Source: Candidatus Kapaibacterium sp.
GTDB taxonomy: Bacteria > Bacteroidota > Ignavibacteria > Kapaibacteriales > UBA4661
DNA length: 57,045 nt
Direction of reading: 5' to 3'
NCBI GenBank assembly: GCA_025455065.1
Contig: JALONG010000038.1
Location: 1-57,045 of the forward strand
Shown here: piece after piece, positions 20,667 to 51,658 of the stretch
Layout of the letters: every line of letters starts with the position of its first letter
Position numbering within the stretch: the stretch's first letter is position 1
The notes under the pieces: model-generated
Databases searched by the model: none
Told to the model about the DNA's origin: nothing
What the model saw: the letters and a program-made list of their open reading frames with translations, nothing else
Made by a program: the position numbers and the translations under genes

Positions 20667-20975
20667 GATTGAGAAAGAAATTTACCAAACCAAAATTGCA
20701 CATTTAGTGCCGAAAAATCAAGTATTTTAGCCCTTTGCAGGAAAAATGTGGAAAATTCTGGAAAATATCGAAAGTTTTTCCTAAGTTGTGAAATTGGCTT
20801 GTTTGCAAGGTCTGTCTGCCAAAATGTGTGTGAAAGCGCCGTCAAACGCTGCAATCCTGTTCAAAAAATCCTTGAAACCCGCCTCAATACTCGCGTTCAC
20901 ATCGCACTCTTACAATCGAAACATACTTAACACTCAAAAACTCATCACTCAACACTTTACCTTAAAGGTTTGATT
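20667..20975. other. Intergenic region upstream of the 2-oxoglutarate enzyme
   Basis: About 310 bp without a convincing gene. The last 60 bp contain loosely repeated ACTCA/CACT words (20925-20960) of the kind also seen near 52990 and 53640-53780. An AAAGG at 20964-20968 lies 7 bp before the chosen start of the next gene and may be a ribosome binding site. I see no clear promoter. Confidence 0.5.
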
Positions 20976-23900
20976 ATGCTTACGATGAACTCAGCATTTA
21001 TCGAAGACCTCTTTTTCGACTATCTGCGCAATCCCGATTCCGTTGCCACGGACTGGCGCACCTATTTCGATGCAAATCGCGCCGAAATAGCACAGGAACT
21101 CGGTATTCCGGCAAATTCCTTGCCAAATGCCATTGCGCAGAATGTTCCTCCAACACCGCCCAGCAGCGCTGCTGCAAGCTATTCCAACGGAAACGGACAC
21201 GCGGCTACACCTGCCGTTACAAATGGCGCTGCCAATGGCACAAGCAATGGTGCCGCGAATGGTCATGCTGCCGCGCAACCCGCACCACAAGCTACTCCGC
21301 AGGTGACTCCGGCAAAAGCCGAAGCAAAAATTGCTCTTGGTCCCTTAGATTCCATCATCCCGATTTCCGGCGTGGCAGAGCGCGTTGTTACGAACATGGA
21401 ATCAAGCCTGCACGTGCCTGTTGCTACGACTGTCCGCACCATTCCTATCAAAGCGCTCGAGGAAAATCGCACGGTGATTAACGGTGTTTTGGCGCGTCGT
21501 CGTAAAAAGAAAATCAGCTTTACGCACGTTCTGGCTTGGGCGATTGTGAGGGCATTAGTGAAATATCCCCATATGAACGACGGTTTTGCGCGGCAAGAGG
21601 GCAAACCTGTTCGCGTGAAGCGCGGTTCGGTGAATATGGGCTTGGCGGTGGATGCCGTGCGCAAAGACGGCTCACGAGGCTTGGTTGTGCCAAGTGTGAA
21701 AAACGCACAAAATATGACCTTTGCAGAGTTTATGACCGAGTACGATTCGCTCATTGCAAAATCCCGTGTAAACAAACTTGATGTCAACGACCTTTCCGGC
21801 ACAACAGCTTCGCTGACCAATCCCGGTATGCTCGGTACGAATGCTTCCGTGCCGCGTCTTATGGAAGGTCAAGGCTTGATTGTTGCTGCGGGTTCGATTG
21901 ATTACCCCTCGGAAATGAAGGCGTTTGCGCCGCAAATGCTGGCAACAATGGCAGTCAGCAAAGTGATGACCATTACCAACACCTACGACCACCGCATTAT
22001 TCAAGGCGCGGAATCGGGTGAGTTTCTAAATTATATCGAAGAATTGCTGAAGGGCGAAGATAATTTCTACGAGCAGATTTTCGCCAGCCTGCATATTCCT
22101 TACGAGCCGTTCAAATGGACGGTGGATTTGAATAACAATCCTTTTTTCTCCGGCGACCAAGCGGAAGTTTTGGAGCAGGAGACAAAGGTTGTGCAGCTTA
22201 TCAATGCCTACCGTGTGCGTGGGCATCTCTACGCAGACGTAAATCCGCTTGGTTTACAGGCGTTTTATTATCCTGAACTTGAAATCAGCCACTACGGTTT
22301 GACGATTTGGGACCTCAGCCGCGAGTACGATACCGGAGGTTTGGGAGGCATCAAACGCGCTCCGCTCCGCGATATTCTCACGCTTCTGCGCGACACCTAT
22401 TGCAGCAAAATCGGCGTGGAGTTTATGCACATACCCGAACTTGACAAAAAAGCGTGGGTGCGGGATAAATTTGAGGCGGTGTACAACAAAGCAAAATACA
22501 CCAAAGACGAGAAAGTGCGCATCTTGGCGAAACTCGTCGAAGCAGAATCCTTTGAAAAATACATCCACACAAAGTTTGTCGGCTCGAAGCGCTTTTCGGT
22601 CGAAGGCGGCGAGGTTTTTGTTCCGGCGATTGATAAAATCTTGGAATTTGCCGCAGAGCGCGGCGTAACCGATGTCTTTATGGGTATGGCGCACAGAGGG
22701 CGCTTGAACACGCTCATCAACATCATGGGTAAATCGGCTGCCGCAATGTTCAAAAAATTCCAAAATGAACTCGACCCGAATTACGTCGGTTCGGGCGATG
22801 TAAAGTACCATTTAGGCGCACACGGCACATACAAACACCCCAGAAGCGGCACGGAAGTAAACGTCGTCCTTGCGCCGAATCCAAGCCATTTGGAAGCAGT
22901 AAACCCTGTTGTGGAAGGCATGGCACGGGCGCGAATTGACGAGATGCAAGACAAAACCTTCTCGAAGGTGCTTCCAATCTTGGTTCACGGCGATTCGGCT
23001 ATGGCGGGATTGGGCATTGTGCAAGAAACGCTCAATTTGGCGCGGTTGCGAGGCTACAAAACCGGCGGAACGATTCACATCATCATCAACAACCAAATCG
23101 GCTTCACCACTACGCCCGAAGATGCACGTTCCACGATTTACTGCTCCGACATCGGGAAAATGCTGCAAATTCCCATTCTCCACGTAAACGGCGGCGACCC
23201 GGAAGCAGTGCTGACGGCTGCAGCGTTTGCGATTGAATACCGCCAGCTTTTCGGTGAGGATGTGATTATTGACCTTATGTGTTACCGCAAATACGGACAC
23301 AACGAAACTGACGAACCCGCATACACACAGCCTTTGCTTTACAAAAAAATCAAAACGCTTCCGGCTGCTTCGGAGACGTACCGCGACCATCTCATTGAGG
23401 AAAAACTTATTTCCAAAGAAGATGCCGATAAAATCTACGCGGAAATCCAGCAACGCTGGGATGATGCTTTTGTCGCAAGCAAAGAAGCCAAACCAAAAGA
23501 GCTTCAACCGCCGGCACAAGTGGATATGTTCGCACCTTCCAAAACCAGCATCAGCGCTGACCTCGTAAAAGAACTTGGTCAAAAACTTTCTACCGTTCCG
23601 GCACATTTTACCGTCCATCCGAAATTGGCGGATTTGCTCAAGCGGCGCGGTGAGATGATTGAACAGGATAAAGGCTTGGATTGGGGCATGGGCGAAGCGC
23701 TTGCTTTTGGTTCGTTGCTCATGGAAGGCTCTCCCGTGCGAATTACGGGCGAAGATGCTGCACGCGGCACATTCAGCCACCGCCACGCCGTTTTGACGGA
23801 TTTCGTTACCGAAAGCGAACTTATTTTGCTCGACCGCGTGAAACAAGGTCAGCACCCGTTCTACATCTACGATTCGGCGCTGTCGGAATTTGCCGTCATG

Positions 23901-24704
23901 GGTTACGAGTACGGTTACAGCGTTCAGCGTCCCGAAGGTTTAACGATTTGGGAAGGGCAGTTTGGCGACTTTATGAACGGCGCACAAACGATTATTGACC
24001 AATTCCTCAGCGCGGGCGAGGCAAAATGGTCGCAAACATCAAGCCTGGTGCTGCTTTTGCCACACGGCTATGAAGGACAAGGACCGGAACACTCCAGCGC
24101 ACGTTTGGAGCGGTTTTTACAACTTTGCGCCGAAGACAACATGATTGTCGGCAATTTCACTACTCCGGCACAGCTTTTCCACGCTTTACGCCGCCAAGTT
24201 AAGCGCGAATTCAAAAAGCCGCTTGTTTTGATGACACCGAAAAGTATGCTGCGCTCACCGCAAGCCGTCTCGAAGATTGAGGATTTTGTGAGCGGCACGT
24301 TCCAAGAAGTGATTGACGACGCAACAGTCAAAGCAGAAAATGTGCGCCGTGTACTGTTCTGTTCGGGCAAGGTGTATTATGACTTGCTTGCAAAGCGCAC
24401 CAAACTTGGCGCAGAGGATGTAGCGATTGTGCGTTTGGAGCAGATTTATCCTTTCCACGAAGTACGCATCCGCCAAATTTTGCAACAATACGAACAAGCG
24501 AAAAACGTGGTGTGGGTGCAGGAAGAACCGAAGAACATGGGTGCATGGTCGTTTGTAGCTCCGCTCTTTTCGGAACTTTTGCTCATCAGCCAAAACCTGC
24601 GTTACGCAGGCAGGAAAGCCAGCGCCAGCCCCGCAACAGGCTTCACGACTGTTCACAATCTTGAGCAGGAAGCCTTGTTGGATGCGGCGTTTGGGCAGTT
24701 TTAA
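20976..24704 (+). CDS. kgd: Fused 2-oxoglutarate decarboxylase/dehydrogenase E1 with E2 succinyltransferase domain
   Basis: This is a 1242-residue multifunctional enzyme. Residues 1-40 are the 2-oxoglutarate dehydrogenase N-terminal helix (FIEDLFFDYLRNPDSVATDW). Residues about 48-115 are an Ala/Asn/Gln/Pro-rich linker. Residues about 120-355 are the catalytic domain of a dihydrolipoyl succinyltransferase with TYDHRIIQG near 338. The rest is a full E1 with the TPP site GDSAMAG...INNQIGFTT (about 670-708) and the transketolase-like C-terminal part. No lipoyl domain is present. This layout matches actinobacterial Kgd/OdhA. It acts in the TCA cycle, probably with a separate lipoyl-E2 and E3. The ATG at 20976 is chosen; TTG 20970 and ATG 20985 are alternatives. 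Confidence 0.93.
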   Translation: MLTMNSAFIEDLFFDYLRNPDSVATDWRTYFDANRAEIAQELGIPANSLPNAIAQNVPPTPPSSAAASYSNGNGHAATPAVTNGAANGTSNGAANGHAAAQPAPQATPQVTPAKAEAKIALGPLDSIIPISGVAERVVTNMESSLHVPVATTVRTIPIKALEENRTVINGVLARRRKKKISFTHVLAWAIVRALVKYPHMNDGFARQEGKPVRVKRGSVNMGLAVDAVRKDGSRGLVVPSVKNAQNMTFAEFMTEYDSLIAKSRVNKLDVNDLSGTTASLTNPGMLGTNASVPRLMEGQGLIVAAGSIDYPSEMKAFAPQMLATMAVSKVMTITNTYDHRIIQGAESGEFLNYIEELLKGEDNFYEQIFASLHIPYEPFKWTVDLNNNPFFSGDQAEVLEQETKVVQLINAYRVRGHLYADVNPLGLQAFYYPELEISHYGLTIWDLSREYDTGGLGGIKRAPLRDILTLLRDTYCSKIGVEFMHIPELDKKAWVRDKFEAVYNKAKYTKDEKVRILAKLVEAESFEKYIHTKFVGSKRFSVEGGEVFVPAIDKILEFAAERGVTDVFMGMAHRGRLNTLINIMGKSAAAMFKKFQNELDPNYVGSGDVKYHLGAHGTYKHPRSGTEVNVVLAPNPSHLEAVNPVVEGMARARIDEMQDKTFSKVLPILVHGDSAMAGLGIVQETLNLARLRGYKTGGTIHIIINNQIGFTTTPEDARSTIYCSDIGKMLQIPILHVNGGDPEAVLTAAAFAIEYRQLFGEDVIIDLMCYRKYGHNETDEPAYTQPLLYKKIKTLPAASETYRDHLIEEKLISKEDADKIYAEIQQRWDDAFVASKEAKPKELQPPAQVDMFAPSKTSISADLVKELGQKLSTVPAHFTVHPKLADLLKRRGEMIEQDKGLDWGMGEALAFGSLLMEGSPVRITGEDAARGTFSHRHAVLTDFVTESELILLDRVKQGQHPFYIYDSALSEFAVMGYEYGYSVQRPEGLTIWEGQFGDFMNGAQTIIDQFLSAGEAKWSQTSSLVLLLPHGYEGQGPEHSSARLERFLQLCAEDNMIVGNFTTPAQLFHALRRQVKREFKKPLVLMTPKSMLRSPQAVSKIEDFVSGTFQEVIDDATVKAENVRRVLFCSGKVYYDLLAKRTKLGAEDVAIVRLEQIYPFHEVRIRQILQQYEQAKNVVWVQEEPKNMGAWSFVAPLFSELLLISQNLRYAGRKASASPATGFTTVHNLEQEALLDAAFGQF

Positions 24705-34352: not shown

Positions 34353-37300
34353 TTAAACGGGCAGTGTAATCGTAAACGTTGTTCCACGCTCTGCCTCCGA
34401 TGCACAATGGATTTCACCACCCAATTTCTGCGTTACAAGATTATAGACAATGTGCATCCCAAGCCCCGTCCCGCCTTGTGCCTGCTTTGTTGTGAAAAAG
34501 GGGTCAAAAATACGCGGTAATATCTCGCTCGGAATTCCGCGACCCGTGTCAGAATACGTGATGGTAATACGATTGCTTTGGGGACCCTGTTCTGCGCTGA
34601 TGCGCATGATTCCTGTTTCGGTGAATTCCGAAAAACCGTGCAGTAGGGAGTTCTCAATGAGGTTGGTGATAATTTGCGCTATCGCGCCCGGATACGTCTC
34701 CAAAACCAGGTTTTCATCGCACGTAATTTCAACGCGGTGCTGCGTGGCTTTCCATTTCGGTTCAAGGCTGGTGATGACTTCGTGTAGGTATTTGTGTAGG
34801 TGAAAACGGCGTTTGTTGTCGCTTGTTTGGTCCACAGCTACTTGTTTGAAACTTTGAATCAGATTTGCGGCTCTTGCTAAATTGCGTAAGGTGAGGTCGG
34901 CACCGATTTTCGCCTGTTCGATGAAGGTTTCGAGAGTGCTTTTTTTCAATCCGCCTGCTTTGTACTCATTCTCGAAAGTTTGTACTTTTCCGTGCAGTGT
35001 GGAAGCAGCAGTAACGGCAACACCGATGGGCGTATTGAGTTCATGCGCCACACCTGCGACGAGCGTTCCCAAAGAAGCCATTTTTTCGGCTTGAGCGAGT
35101 TGGTTTTGGGTTCGGCGAAGGGTTTCGAGGCTTTCCGAGAGTTCGGTGTTTTTGAGTTGGATTTGTTGGGCTTGGTTCTGTATTTCTTGTGTGCGTGTAT
35201 CAATTATGTTTTCTAGTGCCTCCGCTCTTTTAAGAAGACGGTTTGTTCTCCAAAGAATACTGAAATAGACCAGACTACATATAATGATAATACAAATAGC
35301 ATAAAACCACGATGTTGTCCACCAAAAGGGTTTAACAGAAAATTCAATCCAAGTCCCTTTTTCATTCCAAACCCCGTCATTATTACAAGCAATAACCCGA
35401 AAGCGGTATTTCCGACCTTTGGGAAGATTGGTGTAATAAGCCGTGCGGCGATTTTCAGCTTCAACCCACTCTTTATCAAAACCTTCCAGCATATACTTGA
35501 ATTTTACTCGCTCTGCTGCCGTTAGGCATATTGCTGTATATTGAAATTCTAGCTTTTCTGTACTTGAAGGTAATTCAATACCATTTTGACGCAGAATTAC
35601 TGAATCAATAATACCATCAATACGAATTTCTTCAAGAATAATCTTTGGTGGGATTTCATTCTTGTAAAGATTTTTGGGATTGATAGTAACAGCACCACGG
35701 ATGGTAGGAAACCATAAGCGTCCATCAGAGGAGCGTATTGCAGACGGTTGTGAGCCACCGTTGCATTCCGCTGAAATCATACCGTCAGAAGTACCGAAAA
35801 TTTTGCAGCGCAGACGAGCAAGTTTACCGTCTGCTACGGAATCAAGGTCAGATTTTTTAACACAAAAAATACCTTTGTTGCATGAAATCCAAATATAGCC
35901 GACATCATCTTCCAACAGAGAATAAATAACATTATCAAAAAGCCCGTGTTGCACATTGATATTTACTAAACTGCCATTTTTCAAGCGATAAATGCCGCCC
36001 TCGGCTGTTCCAATCCAAAATACATTGTTGCTATCCTCTCTCAGTGCAAGAATATCGGGAACTGTTAAACCATTAGCACGAGTATATGAATGGACTATCG
36101 AATTATTTTTGAAGACAAACAAACCTTCACGAGTACCTACCCAAACTTGGGAGCTTTTATCCTCGTATAATACAGGCGCTCTTTCGTTTGACAAACCTTC
36201 ATTCTTTCCATAATTATGGAAAATGCCGTTAATCAAACAACTCACCCCTCTGTCGGTACCTATCCATAACGTTCCGCGACTATCACGTAAAAATGAACGT
36301 ACACTGTTATTTATAAGCCCATTTTGTGTACTATATTTTTCGGTTATTTTACCATTTATCAAACGACAGCAACCTTGATCAATTGTTCCGATCCATAACG
36401 ATCCGTCAAGGTCTTCATAAATACCTTTGGCATTATTGCTTGGCAACCCATTCTGTTTTTTCAAATAGTTCCATTCGCCATTGCGATGAATCGCGGCAAC
36501 CCCTTCAGAAAATAGGGTAAACCATAGTGTTTTGTTTGAATCTTCAAGTATTGACCAAATGTCATTAAAACTTTTTTCACCCAATACCGACACTGAGCCA
36601 TTTGAAATTCGATTTAATCCACCACTAACAAGACCAATGAATAATCCACCTTCTTGATCTTCCAGAAAACAATTTATACTGTTTGTCGGTAATCCATCAT
36701 TGACAGTAAAGGAATCAAAATGATCCTGTGAATACCGATAGATTCCCGAACCAAATGTTCCTATCCAAATTGTGCCTTGAGAATCACAAAATAATTCATT
36801 GATATTTTTTGCAGGAATCCCATCACTTGAGCTAAATGTTTTCCAATTTTTACCATTCCACATCTGAAGACCATTTTGTGTACCTATCCAAATATTCGCA
36901 TTCTGGTCTTGGCATAAACCTCGAATACTCGCATTAAGCAGACCATCCTTTGCGGTATAAGACTCTTTGACATTATAAGTTTGAGTGTTGATTCGCATAA
37001 GAGCATTATTTGTACCGACCCATAAAAATCCCTCCCTATCGAAAGTTAGCGCACCTATTTGATTACTTAATAACCCTTCATTTGTTGTCATTACGCGAAC
37101 TACTCGACCATTTTTGATATGATTGATACCAGCCGTGGATGTTCCAACCCAAATCCCTCCTCTTGGATCAGGCACAATGATACTGCCTTCATCAGGAATA
37201 GAATTACCTGAAAGACCATTATGGGTAGTCATTGATGTAAAAGAATTATCTTTGATCTGAACGATTCCTTGGTTCTGAACTGCTACCCAAAGAGTTCCAT

Positions 37301-37616
37301 CTGTTTCCATTCCAAGTGCTTGGCAATTATTAGCAGGAAGCGGAGAATTATGCCTATCAAATATTTTCATCGTTAAACCATCAAAACGCACCAAACCTTC
37401 TTGAGTAGCTATCCAAATATAACCATCTGGGGTTTGCGCCAAACCCGAAACAGCATTTTGGGGCAAACCTTGCTCAGTTTGCCATACCTTGTGAACATAT
37501 TGAGATGGCAACTTCTGTGGATCTAAGCCTTTTTTGACCGAATTTGTACTTTGAGATAGAAGTGGTTGCCAAACTCCAGTAACCAGCACTGCGATAATGT
37601 AGAGAAATTTAGGCAT
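34353..37616 (-). CDS. Two-component beta-propeller sensor histidine kinase
   Basis: This 1087-residue sensor kinase begins with a signal sequence (MPKFLYIIAVLVTGV). A long periplasmic region of repeated units such as DGYIWIATQEGLVRFDG and GTLWIGTDRGVSCLING follows, making two reg_prop beta-propellers of about 14 repeats. A Y_Y_Y domain with FKYMLEGFDKEWVEAENRRTAYYTNLPKG comes next, then a transmembrane helix (WFYAICIIIICSLVYFSILW), a coiled coil, and a HisKA-like region with His in GVAHELNTPIGVAVT. The ATPase has N-box NLIENSLLHG, DTGRGIP and GGTGLGMHIV. It has no receiver or AraC output, unlike classic hybrid HTCS proteins. Its ligand and its response regulator are not obvious here. Confidence 0.9.
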   Translation of the reverse strand: MPKFLYIIAVLVTGVWQPLLSQSTNSVKKGLDPQKLPSQYVHKVWQTEQGLPQNAVSGLAQTPDGYIWIATQEGLVRFDGLTMKIFDRHNSPLPANNCQALGMETDGTLWVAVQNQGIVQIKDNSFTSMTTHNGLSGNSIPDEGSIIVPDPRGGIWVGTSTAGINHIKNGRVVRVMTTNEGLLSNQIGALTFDREGFLWVGTNNALMRINTQTYNVKESYTAKDGLLNASIRGLCQDQNANIWIGTQNGLQMWNGKNWKTFSSSDGIPAKNINELFCDSQGTIWIGTFGSGIYRYSQDHFDSFTVNDGLPTNSINCFLEDQEGGLFIGLVSGGLNRISNGSVSVLGEKSFNDIWSILEDSNKTLWFTLFSEGVAAIHRNGEWNYLKKQNGLPSNNAKGIYEDLDGSLWIGTIDQGCCRLINGKITEKYSTQNGLINNSVRSFLRDSRGTLWIGTDRGVSCLINGIFHNYGKNEGLSNERAPVLYEDKSSQVWVGTREGLFVFKNNSIVHSYTRANGLTVPDILALREDSNNVFWIGTAEGGIYRLKNGSLVNINVQHGLFDNVIYSLLEDDVGYIWISCNKGIFCVKKSDLDSVADGKLARLRCKIFGTSDGMISAECNGGSQPSAIRSSDGRLWFPTIRGAVTINPKNLYKNEIPPKIILEEIRIDGIIDSVILRQNGIELPSSTEKLEFQYTAICLTAAERVKFKYMLEGFDKEWVEAENRRTAYYTNLPKGRKYRFRVIACNNDGVWNEKGTWIEFSVKPFWWTTSWFYAICIIIICSLVYFSILWRTNRLLKRAEALENIIDTRTQEIQNQAQQIQLKNTELSESLETLRRTQNQLAQAEKMASLGTLVAGVAHELNTPIGVAVTAASTLHGKVQTFENEYKAGGLKKSTLETFIEQAKIGADLTLRNLARAANLIQSFKQVAVDQTSDNKRRFHLHKYLHEVITSLEPKWKATQHRVEITCDENLVLETYPGAIAQIITNLIENSLLHGFSEFTETGIMRISAEQGPQSNRITITYSDTGRGIPSEILPRIFDPFFTTKQAQGGTGLGMHIVYNLVTQKLGGEIHCASEAERGTTFTITLPV

Positions 37617-42137: not shown

Positions 42138-43106
42138 TTACTTTCCGACGACCGCTTTCACTTTTTCGGTCAATTTCGGAAGAACTTCAAAGGCATCGCC
42201 AACGATGCCGTAATCAGCGATTTGGAAAATCGGCGCATCTTTGTCTTTATTGATGGCAACGATAACTTTCGATGAGGACATACCTGCAAGGTGCTGAATA
42301 GCGCCGGAGATGCCAGCCGCGATATAGAGCGTCGGGGAAACGGTTTTGCCTGTTTGACCGACCTGCTCGCCGTGCGGTCTCCAGCCTGCATCCACAACGG
42401 CGCGTGATGCACCAACAGCTGCGCCAAGCGTACCGGCAAGGCTTTCTACGAGGTGGAAGTTTTCCGGTCCTTTCAAGCCACGACCGCCTGAAACGATAAT
42501 GTCCGCTTCGGCAACGTCCAATTTACCGGTGTTGCGGCTGACGGATGTAACGGTTGCTTTAACGTGGTTGTCTGCCAAATTCGGCGCAAAATCACGTGTT
42601 GCGGTTGTTGCAGGAGCATCAACTTTTTTCGCGGTGAAAACGTTGGGGCGAATGGTGATGACTTTTTTTGCCGTCGTAATTTTGCTTTTGAGACGTGCTT
42701 TACCAGCATAAACAGGGCGCGTTACAATGACATCTGCACCGGAAACTTCGTGTGCAATAGTGTCGGGAGCAAGTCCGGCTTCCAATTTCACGGCAAGGCG
42801 CGGAGCGATTTCTTTTCCGGTCGAAGATGCCGGAAGCAAGACCACATCAGCATTTTCAGCTTTTGCTGCTTGAGCAAGTGTTTCTGCAACGGCAGATGTG
42901 GATTGTTTTTCAAGCAGGGCGTGTTTTGCGACAAGGCAATCCGCCAAACCGTAAGCACCTGCGCCCGAAGCGTCTGCGCCACCGATAATGATGCCGACAA
43001 CCGAACCACCGGAATTTTTTGCGAGGTGTTGTGCTGCGGTAATCGTCTCAAAAGCAGTTTTTTTGAGCGCACCGTCGAGCGTTTCGAGATAAGCAAGGAT
43101 TTTCAT
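42138..43106 (-). CDS. etfA: Electron transfer flavoprotein subunit alpha
   Basis: This 322-residue protein matches EtfA/FixB. The N-terminal domain has LPASSTGKEIAPRLAVKLEAGL. The FAD-binding C-terminal domain has GGRGLKGPENFHLVESLAG, GASRAVVDAGWRPHGEQVGQTGK, SPTLYIAAGISGAIQHLAGM and VAINKDKDAPIFQIADYGIVGD. It binds FAD and, with EtfB, carries electrons from acyl-CoA or other dehydrogenases to ETF-quinone oxidoreductase. It is the second gene of the etfBA operon, 62 bp behind etfB, and is followed by a strong terminator. Confidence 0.96.
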   Translation of the reverse strand: MKILAYLETLDGALKKTAFETITAAQHLAKNSGGSVVGIIIGGADASGAGAYGLADCLVAKHALLEKQSTSAVAETLAQAAKAENADVVLLPASSTGKEIAPRLAVKLEAGLAPDTIAHEVSGADVIVTRPVYAGKARLKSKITTAKKVITIRPNVFTAKKVDAPATTATRDFAPNLADNHVKATVTSVSRNTGKLDVAEADIIVSGGRGLKGPENFHLVESLAGTLGAAVGASRAVVDAGWRPHGEQVGQTGKTVSPTLYIAAGISGAIQHLAGMSSSKVIVAINKDKDAPIFQIADYGIVGDAFEVLPKLTEKVKAVVGK

Positions 43107-43168
43107 AGTCTGTTGAAGATTAAGGGAAGTATGAAAGCAATATGATTAAAAAACTACCGCACAATACG

Positions 43169-43912
43169 TTAGATAACTTTCGCTTCTTCGTGGAGAAGTT
43201 TCACGAGTTCGGCAATATCACCATCGGAATCGCCAAGAACTTTGCCTTTGCCTTTCGCGGGCGGTAATTCCAAGCCGACAATTTCCGTGCGTGCCGACAA
43301 AGCAGATGCAGCGCGTTCTTCAATCGGTTTTGATTTTGCTTTCATAATGTCCGGCAATTTCGGGTAACGCGGCTCATTCAAGCCTTTTTGCGCGGAAATC
43401 ACCGCCGGAAGGCTTGCAGCAACGGTTTCTTTACCACCTTCGATGTCGCGCTCTGCGCTAAGGCTTGTGCCGTTAATCTCAAGTTTGGAAGTAATTGTTA
43501 CCGAAGGCATATCAAGAATTTCCGCAACCATCGGTGCAACTTGGAAGGAGTCAAAATCAATGCTTTGGCGACCGAACAAAACCACGTCCGGTTTGATTTC
43601 TTGCGCTACGGCTGCCAAATTGCTCGCAATAACGAAAGAATCAGCGCTGTCGGATTTAACCAAGATTGCTTTATCTACTTGCAACGCAAGGGCAGTACGA
43701 AGAACGTCTTTTGCGCCATCGCCGCCGACGGTAACGGCTGTAACCGTGCCGCCGTTTTTCTCTTTGAGGCGCAATGCTTCTTCGAGAGCAAACTCGTCGT
43801 AGGGGTTCATAATGTATTTTACGCCTTTGCTGTCAATAGACTTACCGTCTGCGCCGATGACGATTTTGGTCGTCGTATCCGGCACTTGTGAAAGACCAAC
43901 GAGGATATTCAT
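43169..43912 (-). CDS. etfB: Electron transfer flavoprotein subunit beta
   Basis: This 247-residue protein matches EtfB/FixA: DSKGVKYIMNPYDEFALEEALRLKEK, ALALQVDKAILV, DVVLFGRQSIDFDSFQVAPMVAEIL, and the C-terminal DIMKAKSKPIEER (recognition-loop region). It binds AMP at the interface with EtfA. It is the first gene of the operon and has a TTTG/TAGATTTG promoter-like site about 90 bp upstream. Confidence 0.96.
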   Translation of the reverse strand: MNILVGLSQVPDTTTKIVIGADGKSIDSKGVKYIMNPYDEFALEEALRLKEKNGGTVTAVTVGGDGAKDVLRTALALQVDKAILVKSDSADSFVIASNLAAVAQEIKPDVVLFGRQSIDFDSFQVAPMVAEILDMPSVTITSKLEINGTSLSAERDIEGGKETVAASLPAVISAQKGLNEPRYPKLPDIMKAKSKPIEERAASALSARTEIVGLELPPAKGKGKVLGDSDGDIAELVKLLHEEAKVI

Positions 43913-44092: not shown

Positions 44093-44773
44093 TTACTCAA
44101 TCGCGTGGCGGATTTGTAAGATTGGCGTACCCAAGCCCATAAACGCTGCGTTTGGCGAAAGGATTCCCAATAAACCAAGCGGGGAAATTTCAACCTGCGT
44201 CCTTTCCACAAACCTTTCCAGCCACGATGGGCTATTTATATCAGCACTACTCATAGAACTACTACTGACCAATACCTTTCTCCGAGCAGTTGTACGGAGA
44301 AAATTGCTTCTTGCCTCAGGTAACTCATTCATAAGACTTATTAGAAATCCTATTCCCCATCCTATACTTCCTAATAGTGGGGCAGCAATGTAAGGTTCGG
44401 GGGATCTGGTGATGCTACCAATAAGCAGGGCACTCAATGATGGCAACAATGCACCTGCACCAGCAAACCCGCGAATTGTTACTTCCTGCCGATACGTAAA
44501 ATCATGCCCATTTAGCAATAAAGCACTTAATCCATACCCGGCTACTTGCCCGATAATTCCTGCTGTAAATGCACTGCGCCAGCGTTCAGGTGATGTTGTG
44601 TCCTGTTGAAGAACAGATACAAGTGGAATTGTAAAAGGAGCAACAAGCGCAAATTTGCTTACTGCATCAAAAATGTAGCCGTTTCCACCCGTTAAAGGGC
44701 GTTCGGGATTTGTTGCGACAGCATAACCGATACCATATCCCAAAGCAGCACCAACAAGCGTTGTTGCGCTCAT
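44093..44773 (-). pseudogene. C-terminal fragment of a split membrane lipoprotein gene
   Basis: This 226-residue frame is a run of Gly/Ala-rich hydrophobic helices (TLVGAALGYGIGYAVATN, FTAGIIGQVAGYGLSALLLNG, IAAPLLGSIGWGIGFLISLMNE). It ends with a soluble tail that includes SWLERFVERTQVEISPLG. The same kind of helices end the upstream gene (44880-46307). The frame is open for several codons before its ATG as LPINLMSATT, and the upstream gene has ...GMILP just before the foreign sequence; joining them gives GMILPINLMSATT. It is probably the detached C-terminus of that gene. It might still be translated from its ATG. Confidence 0.6.
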
Positions 44774-44784
44774 GAGGTTAATTG

Positions 44785-44944
44785 GCAGAGTATTGGCTTG
44801 GTATTGAAAAGGACTGCTGGGGGAAGATTGGGTTTGGGCAGTAATACCAATTTACGTTGAAGATTGTGCATTGTTTTTTTTATGCTTTTCTCTGGAAACA
44901 GCACAAATACTCGCACAGACAAGAATGTCTGTGCCACTGAAGCG
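44785..44944 (-). mobile_element. About 160-bp small insertion splitting the lipoprotein gene
   Basis: Removing 160 bp here joins the frames 44880-46307 and 44093-44773 into one of exactly 685 codons. The inserted segment contains the palindrome with arms CACAGACA and TGTCTGTG at 44914-44933, and a 29-bp motif at 44844-44872 that recurs at 56951-56979 with four mismatches. The borders carry imperfect 5-bp repeats (GGCAG at 44784 and GGAAG at 44944). No transposase is encoded, so it would be non-autonomous. Confidence 0.55.
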
Positions 44945-46307
44945 GAAGGATCATTCCAAGTGCCGTGCCGGATGCACCCGAACCCTGAATAGCAAGTGTT
45001 TGTGCATAATTCCAACCGAGCAGTTCCGGTAATCGTAGCGTTAAGTATGTTCGTACAAGACTTGTAGCTACGCCGAAAGAGTGCATCGCAAAAAGATTAG
45101 GAGAAATTTCATCAGAAAACAACCCCCAAAGCGCCATTCCTTGAGGGACTCCCCATGTCGCACCGTCGGCGAGCATAAGCGAGACCGGGCGTGTGTACCA
45201 AGGTTCTGAGTTTGCATATATCGTTAATCCGCATCCCACGAGCATATTGAGAATGGGAACAGCTATTCGGTAACTATTCAGCCCTCGGAAAAGTCCCGTA
45301 TAACGCCCCAGAAGAAAAGACTCAGGCAAAAGTTGAGCAAGAAGAGCATTTGCAGAGTATATATCCACAAGTATTTCGCCTAGGTACCAACGTTCTCCTC
45401 TTGTCATGTACTGTTCGGAACGAAGGAGAACGGGATTGTTGGGGTGATAAATCTTTCCTTCAAGTGAACGAGAGAGCGCTTGAACGTGTTGTTCACTCAA
45501 AACAAAACGTTTGAGAGTAGGTTCCAAACCTAATTCTCGGGCTTCCACCAGATAATTTCCCATGCCCACCGCCAAGCCGTTCTGCTGCTTAAATAGTCGT
45601 ATGCGGTCAAATATCTTCGCTGAATCAGAAACACCTAGCCCTGTAAGCAAAGCATGATCTAATTCCCATATTGCACCAAATTCCGTGTTTTCAAAAAAAG
45701 GTATCCGATTTTCTTTTGTCTCTGTGATTTCCAGTCCTTGGCGAGAAGTATCAATAGGAGCAACTTCCAGCATTGTTGCAATAATAAATGGCTCTCTGCG
45801 GGTTGTATCCAATTCGTCTTGGTAATACTCATCATACAAATTCGTTTGTAAAACAAAGTGAGTTTGTTCATTACAGAGGGCAGCCAGTTTGTTTCGTACG
45901 CTCCAATACCAGTCATGGTCTTGAGAAGTTGTATCGTTGTAATGTACAGTAGCCCTTGTTCCGGCATCATCGGTTATAGTTCTATGCGGAAACGCAATAA
46001 TTGTGTCCAGACGAATAAAAATTGACCAAACATAGTTACTGTACTGAAGGTTAGGAAATAATAAGGATTGCCAGTGCCTTTTTGTTGCCAAAACATGATG
46101 TATTTTGTGTCCGGTGGTTATGGTAACGCTATCCATACCCGCGTTTCGACAAATCTCCGCTATTTCTTGTGAACGTGCATCTGGGCTTTGCGGTGGGCAA
46201 CGAGCCACGAAATGTGTTGTTTCAACAGATGCACATGATTGCAGATACAGTGCCGAACTGCAAATAAACACGAGAGCAGCAAGTTTCAGCCGATGATATA
46301 TTCTCAT
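44880..46307 (-). CDS. Lipoprotein of unknown function, probably truncated by an insertion
   Basis: This 475-residue protein has a lipoprotein signal with Cys near residue 26 (LYLQSCASVETTHF). Residues about 50-330 are a soluble domain (HKIHHVLATKRHWQSLLFPNLQYSNYVW, KIFDRIRLFKQQNGLAVGMGNYLVEARELG). The C-terminal part is hydrophobic with Gly-rich helices. The last 20 residues, LQWHRHSCLCEYLCCFQRKA, are unlike the rest and come from the inserted repeat (its CACAGACA palindrome encodes HRHSCLC). The original protein was probably about 684 residues and included the fragment at 44093-44773. The function is unknown. Confidence 0.6.
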   Translation of the reverse strand: MRIYHRLKLAALVFICSSALYLQSCASVETTHFVARCPPQSPDARSQEIAEICRNAGMDSVTITTGHKIHHVLATKRHWQSLLFPNLQYSNYVWSIFIRLDTIIAFPHRTITDDAGTRATVHYNDTTSQDHDWYWSVRNKLAALCNEQTHFVLQTNLYDEYYQDELDTTRREPFIIATMLEVAPIDTSRQGLEITETKENRIPFFENTEFGAIWELDHALLTGLGVSDSAKIFDRIRLFKQQNGLAVGMGNYLVEARELGLEPTLKRFVLSEQHVQALSRSLEGKIYHPNNPVLLRSEQYMTRGERWYLGEILVDIYSANALLAQLLPESFLLGRYTGLFRGLNSYRIAVPILNMLVGCGLTIYANSEPWYTRPVSLMLADGATWGVPQGMALWGLFSDEISPNLFAMHSFGVATSLVRTYLTLRLPELLGWNYAQTLAIQGSGASGTALGMILPLQWHRHSCLCEYLCCFQRKA

Positions 46308-46674
46308 AGTGTAAACTCCATAAAGTGTTAATAATCAAATACCAATAGTTTTCAAACAACATTTAATGACGGGCTTGAAGAGAGACTGAAAAATGTACAA
46401 TAACAACAATCAAACACTGTAAACTCAGACGCACCCTCGCACGTCTTATTGTTGGAAAAACACAAAAACACATTGCGCCACAATTATCTGATTGTTGCTG
46501 CCTTATTGTTGTATCCTTCACCTGACAATTCCCTTGTTTTTTCCTGTGATTGTATGTAACTTTTTACCGTCCAAACCGTTCTTCTTTCTATGCACATAGC
46601 GCATGGTTGCTGGTCTTGTAGCTATCATTGCCAAAAGATGTGCTTTTTTCTCACTTTTTTGTGTGAGTTCCTCC
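46308..46674. other. Divergent intergenic region
   Basis: About 370 bp separate the lipoprotein start from the chosen start of the propeller/barrel gene. It is A/T-rich with scattered AACAATCAAAC and TTATTGTTG words. I see no RNA gene or strong promoter. A TAACTTTT with a TTG about 20 bases upstream (around 46528-46560) only partly resembles the -7/-33 pattern. An in-frame ATG at 46603 precedes the chosen start. Confidence 0.4.
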
Positions 46675-49600
46675 ATGAAAACTTTTTCAGTAAACACAAC
46701 GACGAATGTACCTGTACGTGTAGTATTGATACGCTTTATAGCTATCATTTGTTTTGTTGGTATGAGTGCTTTTGGTTTCCTTCAAGCGCAAGCGCCGCGT
46801 TTTGGCACATTTTCGCCGCAGTATCAACCCTTGGAATGGAAAATGATGGAATCCCGCAGCGCTGATGTGTATCATCATCAAGGCGGCGCGTATTTAGCGC
46901 GGTTCGCGGCAATAACGCTGGAAGAATCCCTAAAACCCTTACAGCGCATTTTTAGCGCTCCCATAACCGATAAAATGGTGCTGATTGTCTATACCACACC
47001 TTACGATGCTCTTCAAGATAATTCCCGTACCGTTAGTCTTCCGGCGGGAGTTTCCGACATCAACACGCTCAACCGAAACCGCATGGTTGTTAGCTTCACC
47101 GGTGATTGGTACGAATTTAAGCGCTCTATCATCCGCGAACTTACGCGAGGCGTGATGAACACGGTCTTTTACGGGGGAGTGCTTCCGCAAAAAACAGGCG
47201 GAGAGTTTGCAGTGTCCGAGTGGTTTTTGGAAGGTTTGGCGGAATACGTCGCCAACGACGCTTCCATGACCGCAGAGACGGATATGGCAATGCGCGATAT
47301 TCTCCTCAGCGACCGCTTTACGACCTTCGGCGCGTTGGAACAGCAATATCGCATCCCGATTGGTCATGCCTTTTTTTGGTATGTTGGTGAAAAATTCGGT
47401 GCTGGGCGCATTTCGGAACTGATTTCGCGCTTACGCGGTTTGCGCTCATTGGAAAATGCTTTTCGCACGACCTTTGGTTTGACGCTGGACGGCTTCGCGG
47501 CTGTTTGGCGGCGCGATATGAAGGATATTTTTACCGCAGATGCCGCTTCCTTTGAAGACGCAGACAAAATCGCCACGCGCCTCACCGATACCGACAAAGA
47601 CGGCTCTCAGGCAAATAGCGATCCCGTGTGGTCGCCCGTGAGCGATAAAAATGGTGATAAATTTGCTTTCCTGTCGGCACAAGGAGACGTTTGGCAAGTA
47701 ATGGTGCAGTTTGAAGGCAAATTTAAGCGCCTTGAGCGTGTGCTGAATACAGGGCGAGAATTTAATGCCTCACGCGCAATGCTCCCCAAAAGCGCATCGT
47801 TACTCTCGTGGAAGCCTGACGGAACACAGATTGCCGCCGTCGTGAGCGGAAACGGGGCAGACGGAGTAATGCTGGTTAATCCTACCACCGGCGCACAACA
47901 GCGCTTGGAAATCGCCCTCAAAACTATCACTGCACTCGCATTTTCGCCGGACGGAAAATTGCTTGCTTTGTCTGCCGTCGAAAACGAATCACCGAATTTG
48001 TTCCTGTTCGATATTGCCGGAAAAAAACTCTCCAAACTCACCAATGATGTGTTTACCGATGCCGAGCCAACGTGGTCGCCGGATGGAAAAACGCTGTATT
48101 TCCTTTCTGACCGCGCATCGAACCTTGCCACGAGTTCTTCTACGGCAAGTGTCCAGATGTGGGAGCAAGCCGTTCAAAACACTGATATTTACGCATACAG
48201 TTTTGCAACAAAAAAGATTGAACGCCTGACAACAACCCCCTCCGAAAGAAAAATCGCTCTGGCTCTTTCACCTGACGGCAAGCGCTTGTTCTATTCTTCC
48301 GACCGCAACGGCTTGTACAATCTTTATGATTACAATCTCGTAGCAAAGACCATTACACCGCGCACGAACATTCAAGGCGGTATCAGGGAATTTGGCTTTA
48401 CACGCGGCGGCGCAGGTATGACGTTTTCAGCGATTAAAAAGGGCGGACTGAACATTTTCACCTTGCAAGCTGCTCTCGACCGTAAAATCCCCGAACCAAA
48501 CGCTACAACGCTCCGCAAACAAAGCCTTGAGCGCGAATCTGCTGCGGAAAAAGCACTCGGACGCGCCGCACAACCATCATCATCAGAAGGAACTCAACAG
48601 CCTTCGGACGGTATCATCGTTCAGTATGCACCTGACACCTTGCGCGGTTACGGGAAAGTTGATTTAACGTTGGAAAACCAAAAAATGGTGCTTCCCAATC
48701 CCGAACTTTTGGCACAAGCCGCACGGCAGCAAGCGGTAGAGGAAAATGATTTTTCAACGCCGGGGCAGTTGCCCTCGCAGCCTGTGGAATACAATTTGAA
48801 CTTGGTAACATGGGATTTAGCGCCGACCTTTGACACGTTTTTCTCCGCAAGCCCAGCCGTTTCGCAATCAACAATCATGGGAAATTTCGGTTTGAAAGCC
48901 GATGGTCTCTGGATGGATGCTCCCGGAAATCACCGTTTGTACGCTATGGCGAATTTAGCAACGGTATTGCTGAATTTGAACAACAACGATGCGCTGCTTT
49001 CCTACACCTATCTTCCCGAAACAGTAGATTTTGAGTTTCAACTCTTCCGCACGGCACGGGAAAACTTGATTGTGGACCAACGCGAGGCAGTTCGCGCCGT
49101 ATTGTCCTATTGGGGCGGTTCGGCAAAGGCAATGCTCCCACTTTCAGCTTCCATGCGGCTTGAGGGCAAAGTTGCCGTGATGAACGCTCTGCGGAACAGT
49201 TCGCAAACACGGGTCAATCGCTCGGATTTTATCGTTGCGCCGGAACTGCGCTTTGTGCTGGATAATGCGGAAATCGGGTATATGGGACCGCAAGCCGGAA
49301 TGCGCGGTTCGGTAACGATTGACGGTGTGCCGGGCTTAGGCGGGCTATCCTTTGTTCGCGCTATTGCGGACTTTCGGCAGTATATTCCCGTAAAAAATCT
49401 TGCAACGGTCGCCATACGCCTCTCTGCGGGAACGAATCTGGGCGATACACCGCAGAATTTCTTAGCCGGAGGGCAGGAAAACATGATTTTGGGGCGTACC
49501 TTTGCTCCGGAAATTCTGCCTTTGAACAGAGCAGAGGATTTATACTTTTTGCAGCCTGTCATGCCTCTACGCGGCTTTGCGATTGCCGATGGGCAGGGCA

Positions 49601-49944
49601 GGAACTTCGCCGGAGCGAATGTCGAAGTACGTGTGCCGCTTTTGCAGCAGGAAAACACCTCGTCGTTTTTAAGCAGCCTCCTTTACGGCTTGCAAGCCGT
49701 CGCGTTTCTTGATGTGGGCAGCGCGTGGACAAATCCTCTTCGTTTGAATGTACCTCGTGCAATTTTCGATACGTTTGACCGCTACGTCGGTCTTGCAGGT
49801 GGGGATTTGCTCATGTCCTTTGGCGCAGGGTTGCGTACCTACATCATGGGAACACTTCCGGTGCGAATTGATTTGGCGTGGCAAAATCTCCAAACAGGGC
49901 TGATGCAGCCTCGCTTTACCGTTGGAATGGGCTATAATTTTTAG
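46675..49944 (+). CDS. TolB-type propeller protein with degenerate metallopeptidase domain and C-terminal beta-barrel
   Basis: This protein of 1089 residues starts at the ATG at 46675, which begins a signal peptide ending near FLQAQAP; an in-frame ATG at 46603 would place extra hydrophobic sequence in front. Residues about 45-300 resemble the MA-clan peptidase domain of secreted TolB-like proteins. The Zn motif HExxH is changed to RELTR (154-158), while EWFLEGLAEY (182-191), which holds the third ligand Glu186, is kept. Residues about 320-650 carry PD40/TolB repeats (FSPDGKLLALSA, WSPDGKTLYFLSDR, LSPDGKRLFYSSDR). The end is a surface-antigen-like barrel with terminal Phe (FTVGMGYNF). It is probably an outer-membrane pseudo-peptidase. 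Confidence 0.8.
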   Translation: MKTFSVNTTTNVPVRVVLIRFIAIICFVGMSAFGFLQAQAPRFGTFSPQYQPLEWKMMESRSADVYHHQGGAYLARFAAITLEESLKPLQRIFSAPITDKMVLIVYTTPYDALQDNSRTVSLPAGVSDINTLNRNRMVVSFTGDWYEFKRSIIRELTRGVMNTVFYGGVLPQKTGGEFAVSEWFLEGLAEYVANDASMTAETDMAMRDILLSDRFTTFGALEQQYRIPIGHAFFWYVGEKFGAGRISELISRLRGLRSLENAFRTTFGLTLDGFAAVWRRDMKDIFTADAASFEDADKIATRLTDTDKDGSQANSDPVWSPVSDKNGDKFAFLSAQGDVWQVMVQFEGKFKRLERVLNTGREFNASRAMLPKSASLLSWKPDGTQIAAVVSGNGADGVMLVNPTTGAQQRLEIALKTITALAFSPDGKLLALSAVENESPNLFLFDIAGKKLSKLTNDVFTDAEPTWSPDGKTLYFLSDRASNLATSSSTASVQMWEQAVQNTDIYAYSFATKKIERLTTTPSERKIALALSPDGKRLFYSSDRNGLYNLYDYNLVAKTITPRTNIQGGIREFGFTRGGAGMTFSAIKKGGLNIFTLQAALDRKIPEPNATTLRKQSLERESAAEKALGRAAQPSSSEGTQQPSDGIIVQYAPDTLRGYGKVDLTLENQKMVLPNPELLAQAARQQAVEENDFSTPGQLPSQPVEYNLNLVTWDLAPTFDTFFSASPAVSQSTIMGNFGLKADGLWMDAPGNHRLYAMANLATVLLNLNNNDALLSYTYLPETVDFEFQLFRTARENLIVDQREAVRAVLSYWGGSAKAMLPLSASMRLEGKVAVMNALRNSSQTRVNRSDFIVAPELRFVLDNAEIGYMGPQAGMRGSVTIDGVPGLGGLSFVRAIADFRQYIPVKNLATVAIRLSAGTNLGDTPQNFLAGGQENMILGRTFAPEILPLNRAEDLYFLQPVMPLRGFAIADGQGRNFAGANVEVRVPLLQQENTSSFLSSLLYGLQAVAFLDVGSAWTNPLRLNVPRAIFDTFDRYVGLAGGDLLMSFGAGLRTYIMGTLPVRIDLAWQNLQTGLMQPRFTVGMGYNF

Positions 49945-50273: not shown

Positions 50274-50732
50274 ATGGTGTACGTTACGCGCAAAAGTCAT
50301 TTTTCGGCTTCGCACCGTTTGTTTAATCCCGAATGGAATGATTCGCGGAATGACGAAATCTTTGATAAGTGCAATAATCCTCGCGGTCATGGGCATAATT
50401 ACGTTCTGGAAGTTACCGTTGCGGGACAGCCTGACCAAGAGACCGGCTATGTGATTGACCTCAAAAAACTTCGGGACATTCTCGAAGAGGAGATTATCGA
50501 AAAAGTTGATCACAAACATTTGAATTACGACGTGGATTTTTTGCAGGGGATTATTCCCACCGCAGAAAACGTCGCCGTGATGTTTTGGCAAATCATCGAA
50601 CGCAAGCTCCCAAGCGGGAAGTTACATTCGGTCAAACTCTTTGAATCCGATAACAATTTTGTTGAATATTTCGGCGACCCCGTGAAAATCAAGCGTTTTG
50701 CGGTCAGCCATGAAACGGCGGAAATGGTATGA
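50274..50732 (+). CDS. 6-pyruvoyl-tetrahydropterin synthase / 6-carboxytetrahydropterin synthase family enzyme
   Basis: This 152-residue protein has the T-fold PTPS motifs: Zn ligands His14 (SASHRLF), His39 and His41, and the catalytic Cys33 in the block CNNPRGHGHNY, and later VDHKHLNYD and ESDNNFVEY. The Cys-NNP-x-GHGHNY pattern, with five residues between Cys and the HGH, is the classic PTPS form. QueD usually has a shorter Cys-x3-HGH spacing, so a pteridine (tetrahydrobiopterin-like or limipterin-type) role is at least as likely as queuosine. It uses 7,8-dihydroneopterin triphosphate, the product of the FolE encoded next. Confidence 0.85.
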   Translation: MVYVTRKSHFSASHRLFNPEWNDSRNDEIFDKCNNPRGHGHNYVLEVTVAGQPDQETGYVIDLKKLRDILEEEIIEKVDHKHLNYDVDFLQGIIPTAENVAVMFWQIIERKLPSGKLHSVKLFESDNNFVEYFGDPVKIKRFAVSHETAEMV

Positions 50733-51658
50733 AAAACAACGAAGAGGGAATGAATTACAGAAAAGGCGTGAACAACGGTCTGAACGGGCATTCTAAAAAG
50801 GGGTTTTCTGCCAATGGTCATTCCACAAACGGACATTCCACCAATGGTCATTCCGCAGGCGGTCAAGCTGCAACAGCGCAGAAATTCACGTGCGGACACG
50901 ACCACGACGACGACATTGTTCTTGCAGAACATCCGTATGCGGAACACCCTTTGATTGATGACGATATTGACCTTGACACAGGCGATATGCCGTTTCCCGT
51001 ACTTCCGGGCGCAGATGTACTGCCACGTTTCAGTTCGCTTGGCTATCGTCTTTTCGATGCAAACGGCAATGCTGTGCTGGCGGAAGCGGAAAAAGACGAA
51101 ATGAAGCGGCTTGCAGAACAAAAAATGCAGGAACTGTTCGACATTCTCCGCATTGACCGTAACGACCCCAATTCCCGCGAAACCCCGCACCGTCTGGCAA
51201 AAATGTGGGTAGATGAAATTTTTCGTGGACGCTATGAAGCACCGCCCAAATGCACGGTCTTTCCGAACAGGAAAAACGTGGATGAGTTGGTAATTAGCAA
51301 AGGAATTGCCGTGATGTCGGTCTGTTCGCACCATTGGCAGACGATTTCCGGGACGTGTGCAATCGGCTATGTTCCGGGCGAATCGGTGATTGGACTCTCT
51401 AAACTGACGCGCATTGTGGATTGGTTCGGGCGGCGTGGGCAGATTCAGGAGGAATTGGGCGAACAGATTGCCGATTATTTGAATACGCTCTTGAAACCCA
51501 AAGCGGTGATTGTGGTCATAAAATCCCGCCACTACTGCATGATTGCTCGCGGCGTGAACAGTGAAGAGGATAAAGCACTGATGATTACAACGGCGGTGCG
51601 CGGCTCTATCACGCATAACGAAGCACAGCGCAATGAGTTTATGACCTTGATTTCTTAG
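50729..51658 (+). CDS. folE: GTP cyclohydrolase I (FolE) with His-rich N-terminal extension
   Basis: This 309-residue protein starts 4 bp inside the PTPS gene (ATGA overlap). The last 200 residues are GTP cyclohydrolase I: TPHRLAKMWVDEIF, the Zn-binding VMSVCSHHWQ (Cys199, His202; the common CEHH is CSHH here), GYVPGESVIGLSKLTRIVDWFGRRGQIQEELGEQIADYL, and IKSRHYCMIARG. The first 100 residues are an extra region of NGHST-type repeats (residues 18-45) and a His/Asp-rich segment (TCGHDHDDDI). It may bind Zn2+. It converts GTP to dihydroneopterin triphosphate. Transcription probably ends at the hairpin at 51695. Confidence 0.9.
   Translation: MKNNEEGMNYRKGVNNGLNGHSKKGFSANGHSTNGHSTNGHSAGGQAATAQKFTCGHDHDDDIVLAEHPYAEHPLIDDDIDLDTGDMPFPVLPGADVLPRFSSLGYRLFDANGNAVLAEAEKDEMKRLAEQKMQELFDILRIDRNDPNSRETPHRLAKMWVDEIFRGRYEAPPKCTVFPNRKNVDELVISKGIAVMSVCSHHWQTISGTCAIGYVPGESVIGLSKLTRIVDWFGRRGQIQEELGEQIADYLNTLLKPKAVIVVIKSRHYCMIARGVNSEEDKALMITTAVRGSITHNEAQRNEFMTLIS
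50816..50860 (+). repeat. 15-bp coding tandem repeat in folE
   Basis: Three 15-bp units (GGTCATTCCACAAAC, GGACATTCCACCAAT, GGTCATTCCGCAGGC) encode GHSTN, GHSTN and GHSAG. A degenerate unit lies upstream. The repeat makes part of the His-rich N-terminal extension of FolE. Confidence 0.8.

Follow-up and report, generated by a model that had tools for sequence, protein, structure and literature searches.

WD40-Omp85 is a named subfamily of Omp85 proteins (Heinz and Lithgow 2014, PMC4104836), which the accessible part of that paper likens to a BamA-BamB fusion and to a platform. The word “peptidase” is absent from its main text, and its “Metallo” Omp85 class is defined by PF00149. The periplasmic M48 metalloprotease BepA of Escherichia coli acts at the outer-membrane assembly machine. 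According to the accessible text of the report (PMC8423444), BepA has both degrading and chaperone-like roles on LptD, an edge strand next to the active site is used in both, and the protease-dead E137Q form is weakened in a chaperone-like assay. The BAM complex of Bacteroidota is the subject of a 2025 paper (PMC12611786) whose main text contains none of the words “peptidase”, “metalloprotease” and “propeller”. Pseudopeptidases are well known as a class. In searches of an open-access library, we found no report of the pseudopeptidase described here, or of the function of the peptidase–propeller–Omp85 family to which it belongs. The gene lies on a 57,045-nucleotide stretch of Candidatus Kapaibacterium sp. 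(contig JALONG010000038.1 of assembly GCA_025455065.1)—hereafter called the “window”—and occupies positions 46675-49944 of the forward strand. Judging from sequence comparisons, we consider it fairly probable that its product is a WD40-Omp85-like protein whose peptidase part has become a pseudopeptidase throughout the genus and is retained to bind or scaffold in the periplasm.

The HExxH position of the window protein reads RELTR, encoded by CGC GAA CTT ACG CGA from nucleotide 47134. The original prediction, made from the DNA alone, proposed that this is the aligned HExxH position with both zinc-binding histidines replaced by arginine, and the ortholog alignments agree: Arg154 and Arg158 align to both histidines of HELVH. 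The prediction had named two observations that would speak against it, another HExxH nearby and a different aligned position for RELTR. The motif scan of all 1089 residues found no HExxH, HDxxH or HxxEH-like motif elsewhere, and the homologue alignments place RELTR on the HExxH column. A misplaced alignment is rejected, since no readable relative outside the genus lacks HExxH in this column. Of the two marks of an active clan-MA peptidase, the window protein thus lacks HExxH and has the distal glutamate, Glu186 of EGLAEY (nucleotide 47230); Glu190 of the same motif is invariant in the alignment.

How widely is the zinc site kept among the relatives of this protein? Matches at E≤1e-40 occur in 117 of the 123 genomes of the order, including all 101 of good quality. 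All 61 genomes of the first set match at E≤0.001, the match of G004 being merely a short one to the propeller and the gene of G031 being fragmented. Outside the window's genus, 110 genomes of the order match and 105 are readable at the motif; the uncounted ones are L062 (G031), L138 (G116) and L140 (G102), in which the motif is not visible, and G094 and G099, whose matches do not include that part. We also excluded L001, whose coding sequence is identical to that of L003, and two second copies, L061 and L063. These diverged copies of the protein carry HELVH (L061, G021:C45) and HEVVH (L063, G017:C78). In the phylum, 193 of 296 sampled genomes match by profile at E≤1e-30, where weaker matches possibly have another layout. 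Of the 169 matching genomes outside the order, 47 were read, all high-scoring (at least 876 bits) and picked for breadth before the motif was inspected.

Outside the genus, all 52 first-set orthologs have His154, Glu155, His158 and Glu186. The second set comprises 55 orthologs, with the first three residues present in 53/53 readable ones and Glu186 in 54/54, so that across the other genera of the order HExxH and the distal glutamate are found in 105/105 readable orthologs. The 47 high-scoring orthologs read outside the order also have all four residues, and Tyr227 and Gln231 are invariant among them. Altogether, an intact HExxH is found in none of the seven orthologs of the window's genus and in 152/152 readable relatives outside it. 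We attach no Fisher p value to this contrast, because it is phylogenetically a single event. The idea of the original prediction that the protein descends from a protease is supported.

The window's genus comprises eight genomes, seven of which have the gene. The remaining member, G004 (86% complete), yielded no ortholog match, and two neighbouring genes sought there were likewise unmatched (only the second of these searches had positive controls), so that its absence is uninformative. Arginine replaces the first histidine in 7/7 genus orthologs. At the motif, the window protein and L004 have RELTR, L003 and L006 have RELVH, L005 has RELVR, and L007 and L008 have RELAL. Arg154, Glu155, Gly187 and Glu190 are invariant within the genus, while His158 and Glu186 drift: position 186 is glutamate in 4/7 members including the window protein, aspartate in L003 and L005, and glycine in L006. 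The prediction that the distal glutamate is kept therefore holds for the window protein and fails for the genus as a whole. Similarly, as to whether RELTR is fixed in a clade, which the prediction proposed to check, the absence of HExxH and the presence of Arg154 hold in all seven members, and the exact RELTR spelling does not.

The order of these losses can be read from the tree. The family has two further genera, each represented by one genome (L009 and L015), and the site is intact in both. FastTree groups the seven genus members with a support of 1.0, followed by L009 and then L015, and an IQ-TREE tree, which carries no support values, gives the same grouping. Parsimony on the tree counts one change at position 154, three at position 158 and two at position 186, and leaves position 155 unchanged. 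By parsimony, His154 would thus have been replaced by arginine once, on the genus stem, and these counts suggest that the loss began with the first histidine, the other two ligands changing later and separately. The replacement of Glu186 by aspartate or glycine falls within a single subclade of the genus. Arg154 is encoded by CGC, CGT and CGA among the seven members, which indicates that the arginine has been kept rather than acquired recently. All seven orthologs are open, full-length frames without stops. On this evidence, the zinc site has almost certainly been lost. As to a replacement, this gene is the sole PF13485 match in the eight genus genomes (E≤0.001), and replacement by another PF13485 protein is rejected within the reach of that search, which would miss a diverged one.

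Next, we examined the architecture in which the site was lost. The open reading frame starts at ATG 46675 and encodes 1089 amino acids; an alternative in-frame ATG at 46603 gives a product of 1113 amino acids. The layout originally proposed, an MA-clan peptidase domain joined to TolB repeats and a barrel, held up. In the window protein, Peptidase_MA_2 (PF13485) matches residues 149-282 with an E value of 0.041 and 14.1 bits, below the Pfam cut-off of 32.4. Two genus members, G005 and G006, score 34.7 and 34.1 bits, above the curated cut-off, and the profile matches 35/39 aligned orthologs at E≤0.01 and 13/13 HExxH-bearing domains at E≤0.1. By orthology, the window domain is clearly assignable to Peptidase_MA_2. 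PF00149, mentioned above, is a domain other than Peptidase_MA_2. In all calculations, the pseudo-peptidase domain was taken as residues 37-300, which share four residues with the signal peptide. A search of solved structures with the profile of the 13 HExxH-bearing domains gave no match up to E 5.

The propeller is matched by PD40 (68.4 bits, Pfam) and by TIGR02800 (E 9.9e-29, under the cut-off of that model), and the profile of A1 matches TolB structures. The barrel scores 33.6 bits with PF01103 against a Pfam cut-off of 24, and 36.1 bits in the genome search. No POTRA family is among the Pfam matches of the window protein up to E 1. The window protein therefore has both characters of WD40-Omp85 proteins, a propeller before the barrel and an Omp85 barrel without POTRA. 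The features are collected in the table below.

Features of the window protein and of its neighbourhood (positions are nucleotides of the window)
Feature	Position	Strand	Evidence
N-terminal signal peptide, residues 1-40, end LQAQA	46675..46794	+	sequence judged by eye
Pseudo-peptidase domain, Peptidase_MA_2 / clan MA by descent	46783..47574	+	PF13485 and orthology
R154-E155-L-T-R158, HExxH position	47134..47148	+	alignments and sequence
E186-G-L-A-E190-Y, third-ligand motif	47230..47247	+	alignments and sequence
P228...H231, versus R228 and Q231 in HExxH-bearing relatives	47356..47367	+	alignments
TolB-like propeller, residues 301-640	47575..48594	+	PD40, TIGR02800, TolB structures
Propeller strip with conserved residues replaced in the genus, residues 364-391	47764..47847	+	column comparison
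Omp85-type outer-membrane barrel, residues 735-1089	48877..49941	+	PF01103
6-pyruvoyl-tetrahydropterin synthase family, downstream	50274..50732	+	Pfam
GTP cyclohydrolase I family, downstream	50729..51658	+	Pfam
Electron-transfer flavoprotein alpha and beta genes, upstream	42138..43912	-	Pfam

In addition to the zinc ligands, other conserved positions have changed in the genus. Among 56 conserved peptidase columns (conservation of 98% or more in 50 orthologs from outside the family), Asn46, Phe112, Pro140, His154, Gln171, Tyr227 and Arg228 are changed in 7/7 genus members, and of these, Phe112, Pro140, His154, Gln171 and Arg228 are unchanged in both sister genera (L009 and L015). The wider phylum is less strict, with Phe112, Pro140 and Arg228 each kept in 45/47 orthologs. 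Arg228 is present in 52/52 orthologs of the first set and 54/54 readable ones of the second, and is replaced by proline or lysine in 7/7 genus members; it probably lies near the active site. His231 is found in 5/7 members, L007 and L008 having glutamine there. In clan-MA enzymes, substrate is bound by the strand that immediately precedes the HExxH helix, and Pro140 should fall in this strand. Overall, 25-48% of the 56 columns are changed in genus members, as compared to 14-18% in L015 and L009.

The changes extend to a strip of the propeller: 9 of the 12 conserved columns within 360-395 are changed in at least 5/7 genus members, as compared to 1/16 elsewhere in the propeller (Fisher p 0.0003, although the columns are not independent). 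The barrel is little altered, with 10-19% of its 42 columns changed in the genus.

We then compared the evolutionary rates of the three domains. The ratio of nonsynonymous to synonymous substitution rates (dN/dS) in the closest genus pair, L007/L008, is 0.051 for the peptidase domain, 0.054 for the propeller and 0.075 for the barrel; the corresponding values for L005/L006 are 0.074, 0.077 and 0.056. Four further genus pairs give 0.09-0.20 for the peptidase domain, with less reliable dS. The pair of the window protein with L004 and the other pairs without a computable dS were left unused, and pairs with a proportion of synonymous differences of ~0.6-0.74 are near saturation. Thus, catalytic residues are lost where the relatives keep them in a protein that is under purifying selection, as befits a pseudopeptidase.

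When the three domains are ranked by dN, the peptidase domain comes out slowest in 86/86 HExxH-bearing pairs (at 60-95% identity, the pairs sharing sequences) and in 6/21 genus pairs; it is the fastest in 3/21 genus pairs, all including the window protein. The peptidase/propeller dN ratio is 0.19-0.70 (median 0.53) in HExxH-bearing pairs versus 0.68-1.40 (0.95) in the genus. Branch lengths were also fitted for each domain on one fixed tree and normalised to the remainder of the order (60 bootstraps). In the genus crown, the peptidase domain evolves faster than the propeller by a factor of 1.66 (95% interval 1.33-2.06) and faster than the barrel by a factor of 1.99 (1.69-2.58). On the genus stem, there is no clear excess: 1.43 (0.91-2.59) versus the propeller and 1.17 (0.71-2.15) versus the barrel. 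This pattern fits relaxed yet continuing constraint after the loss of the site.

What does the protein do in the genus? Since the zinc site is lost and the protein is kept, it probably binds rather than cuts, in line with the binding or structural role that the original prediction had suggested. We propose that it is a secreted protein in which the Omp85-type barrel would serve as the anchor, with a TolB-like propeller and with a peptidase domain of clan MA that would be unable to bind the catalytic zinc in the normal manner. The usual Omp85 topology would place the peptidase domain and the propeller in the periplasm. In the HExxH-bearing relatives, the protein may act on outer-membrane or secreted substrates, trimming them or clearing them away; in the genus, the domain may have kept its fold and some binding surface without cutting, and may serve a partner or substrate as holdase or scaffold. 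A tentative and more specific version, which we would not bet on, is that the domain binds without metal, a structural lock between Arg154 and the retained Glu155 or Glu190 taking the place of the zinc, so that a metallopeptidase widespread in the phylum, an outer-membrane quality-control protease, would have become an Omp85-barrel holdase in one genus. The idea of a lock comes from Arg154 being retained in all seven members despite differing synonymous codons, in contrast to the drift at the other two ligand positions. The principal competitor treats the domain as a passive relic, no longer needed for catalysis and retained only because its folding is required for export and stability of the propeller and the barrel. 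The faster evolution of the domain, which could mean that it is merely tolerated as a spacer, agrees with this, as do the drift of His158 and Glu186 and the large share of conserved columns changed in the genus as compared to L015 and L009. The low dN/dS, the full length in 7/7 members and the unvarying Arg154, Glu155, Gly187 and Glu190 argue the other way. We regard the passive spacer as rather unlikely and prefer a retained binding or scaffold role, to which we give somewhat better than even chances.

Two other accounts are less probable still. The protein might remain an enzyme with a rearranged site, using another metal geometry or other chemistry through Glu155, Glu186 or Glu190, and the new His231; Glu155 and Glu190 are indeed present in all seven members and His231 in five. 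Against it, residue 231 is glutamine in L007 and L008, Glu186 is replaced by aspartate or glycine in 3/7 members, His158 is lost in 5/7, and Arg228 and Tyr227 are changed in all seven. No full alternative ligand set is therefore common to the members of the genus, and such an enzyme is improbable. A decaying pseudogene or an assembly artefact, which the lost catalytic residues and the faster domain might suggest, is rejected as scarcely credible in view of the open full-length frames in seven genomes, the shared changes that follow the tree and a dN/dS well below 1.

Returning to the binding or scaffold role, several observations weigh against it or against the loss on which it builds. The second histidine is present in L003 and L006, and thus a weak non-canonical metal site is possible in these two members. 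A diverged replacement peptidase could escape a PF13485 search, as the window's own domain falls below the threshold. Several columns of the propeller strip are already changed in L009, which has HExxH; the strip therefore diverged before or apart from the catalytic loss and is not strictly tied to it. The peptidase/barrel dN ratios of HExxH-bearing pairs, 0.34-0.96 (median 0.62), overlap with those of the genus, 0.47-1.58 (1.07). The AlphaFold model of the window domain, built with L001, is not trustworthy (mean predicted local distance difference test score 36.4, predicted template modelling score 0.25). Finally, that the HExxH-bearing relatives are active peptidases is inferred from their motif.

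The gene neighbourhood was compared between the window and 16 regions, 6 of the genus and 10 with HExxH. The ortholog has a 6-pyruvoyl-tetrahydropterin synthase gene close by in 6/6 genus regions and in 2/10 HExxH-bearing regions, L147 and L148 (families f10 and f8), where this gene is within ~6 kb on the same strand. The GTP cyclohydrolase I gene is found in 5/6 genus regions, the contig ending in the sixth, and also in L147 and L148. The electron-transfer flavoprotein pair is found in 2/6 genus regions (L001 and L141) and in one of the 10 HExxH-bearing regions (L146, of the sister genus). The gene order thus ties the genus to a few intact relatives and lends only modest support to orthology, for which full-length similarity and the tree are the main evidence; the neighbouring genes say nothing about function. 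Each of the eight genus genomes has 3-5 PF01103 matches, with this gene among them in four genomes. In each genome, one strong match lies in a frame of 857-901 amino acids, which is presumably BamA, so that the present protein is not the sole assembly-type barrel.

Other genes of the window are also of note. Between the electron-transfer flavoprotein genes and the barrel gene, two open reading frames of 226 and 475 amino acids occupy 44093-46307 on the reverse strand; they have no Pfam match up to E 1 and no match in the 16 ortholog regions, no genome-wide search having been made. A frame of 1244 amino acids at 20970-24704 (+) fuses a 2-oxoacid dehydrogenase acyltransferase catalytic domain to 2-oxoglutarate dehydrogenase E1, an architecture that occurs in actinobacterial KGD-type proteins. 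Another, of 1087 amino acids at 34353-37616 (-), combines two-component regulator propellers with a Y_Y_Y domain and HATPase_c, and is sensor-kinase-like.

The peptidase–propeller–Omp85 family looks like a core envelope protein. A genus in which the zinc site is lost and the protein is kept offers a natural experiment that separates the cutting from the non-cutting roles of the peptidase domain and, with intact relatives nearby, shows the steps by which an enzyme can turn into a pseudoenzyme.

Among known systems, the plant FtsHi pseudoenzymes have likewise replaced HExxH while the protein is kept, and FtsHi4, with REAAV, also has arginine at the first histidine and keeps the glutamate (PMC11266112, in its accessible part). 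They belong to a different family, M41, and the accessible text of that paper does not mention the window's protein. The likeness to BepA, an active protease, is an analogy of function only. To our knowledge, BepA has neither a barrel nor a propeller, and the sole sequence link to its family is a weak M48 match of one ortholog (E 0.036). As the dead form of BepA is weaker in the chaperone-like assay, in the account given by the accessible text, the analogy makes a binding role possible. With Peptidase_MA_2 (PF13485, clan MA), the protein shares the domain by descent, its orthologs matching the profile and having HExxH and the glutamate, and it differs in that the window protein and its genus are without the full set of zinc ligands. 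Finally, it resembles WD40-Omp85 in having a β-propeller, closest to TolB, N-terminal to an Omp85 barrel (PMC4104836, as far as accessible), and differs in carrying a clan-MA peptidase domain ahead of the propeller, with the zinc site lost in the genus.

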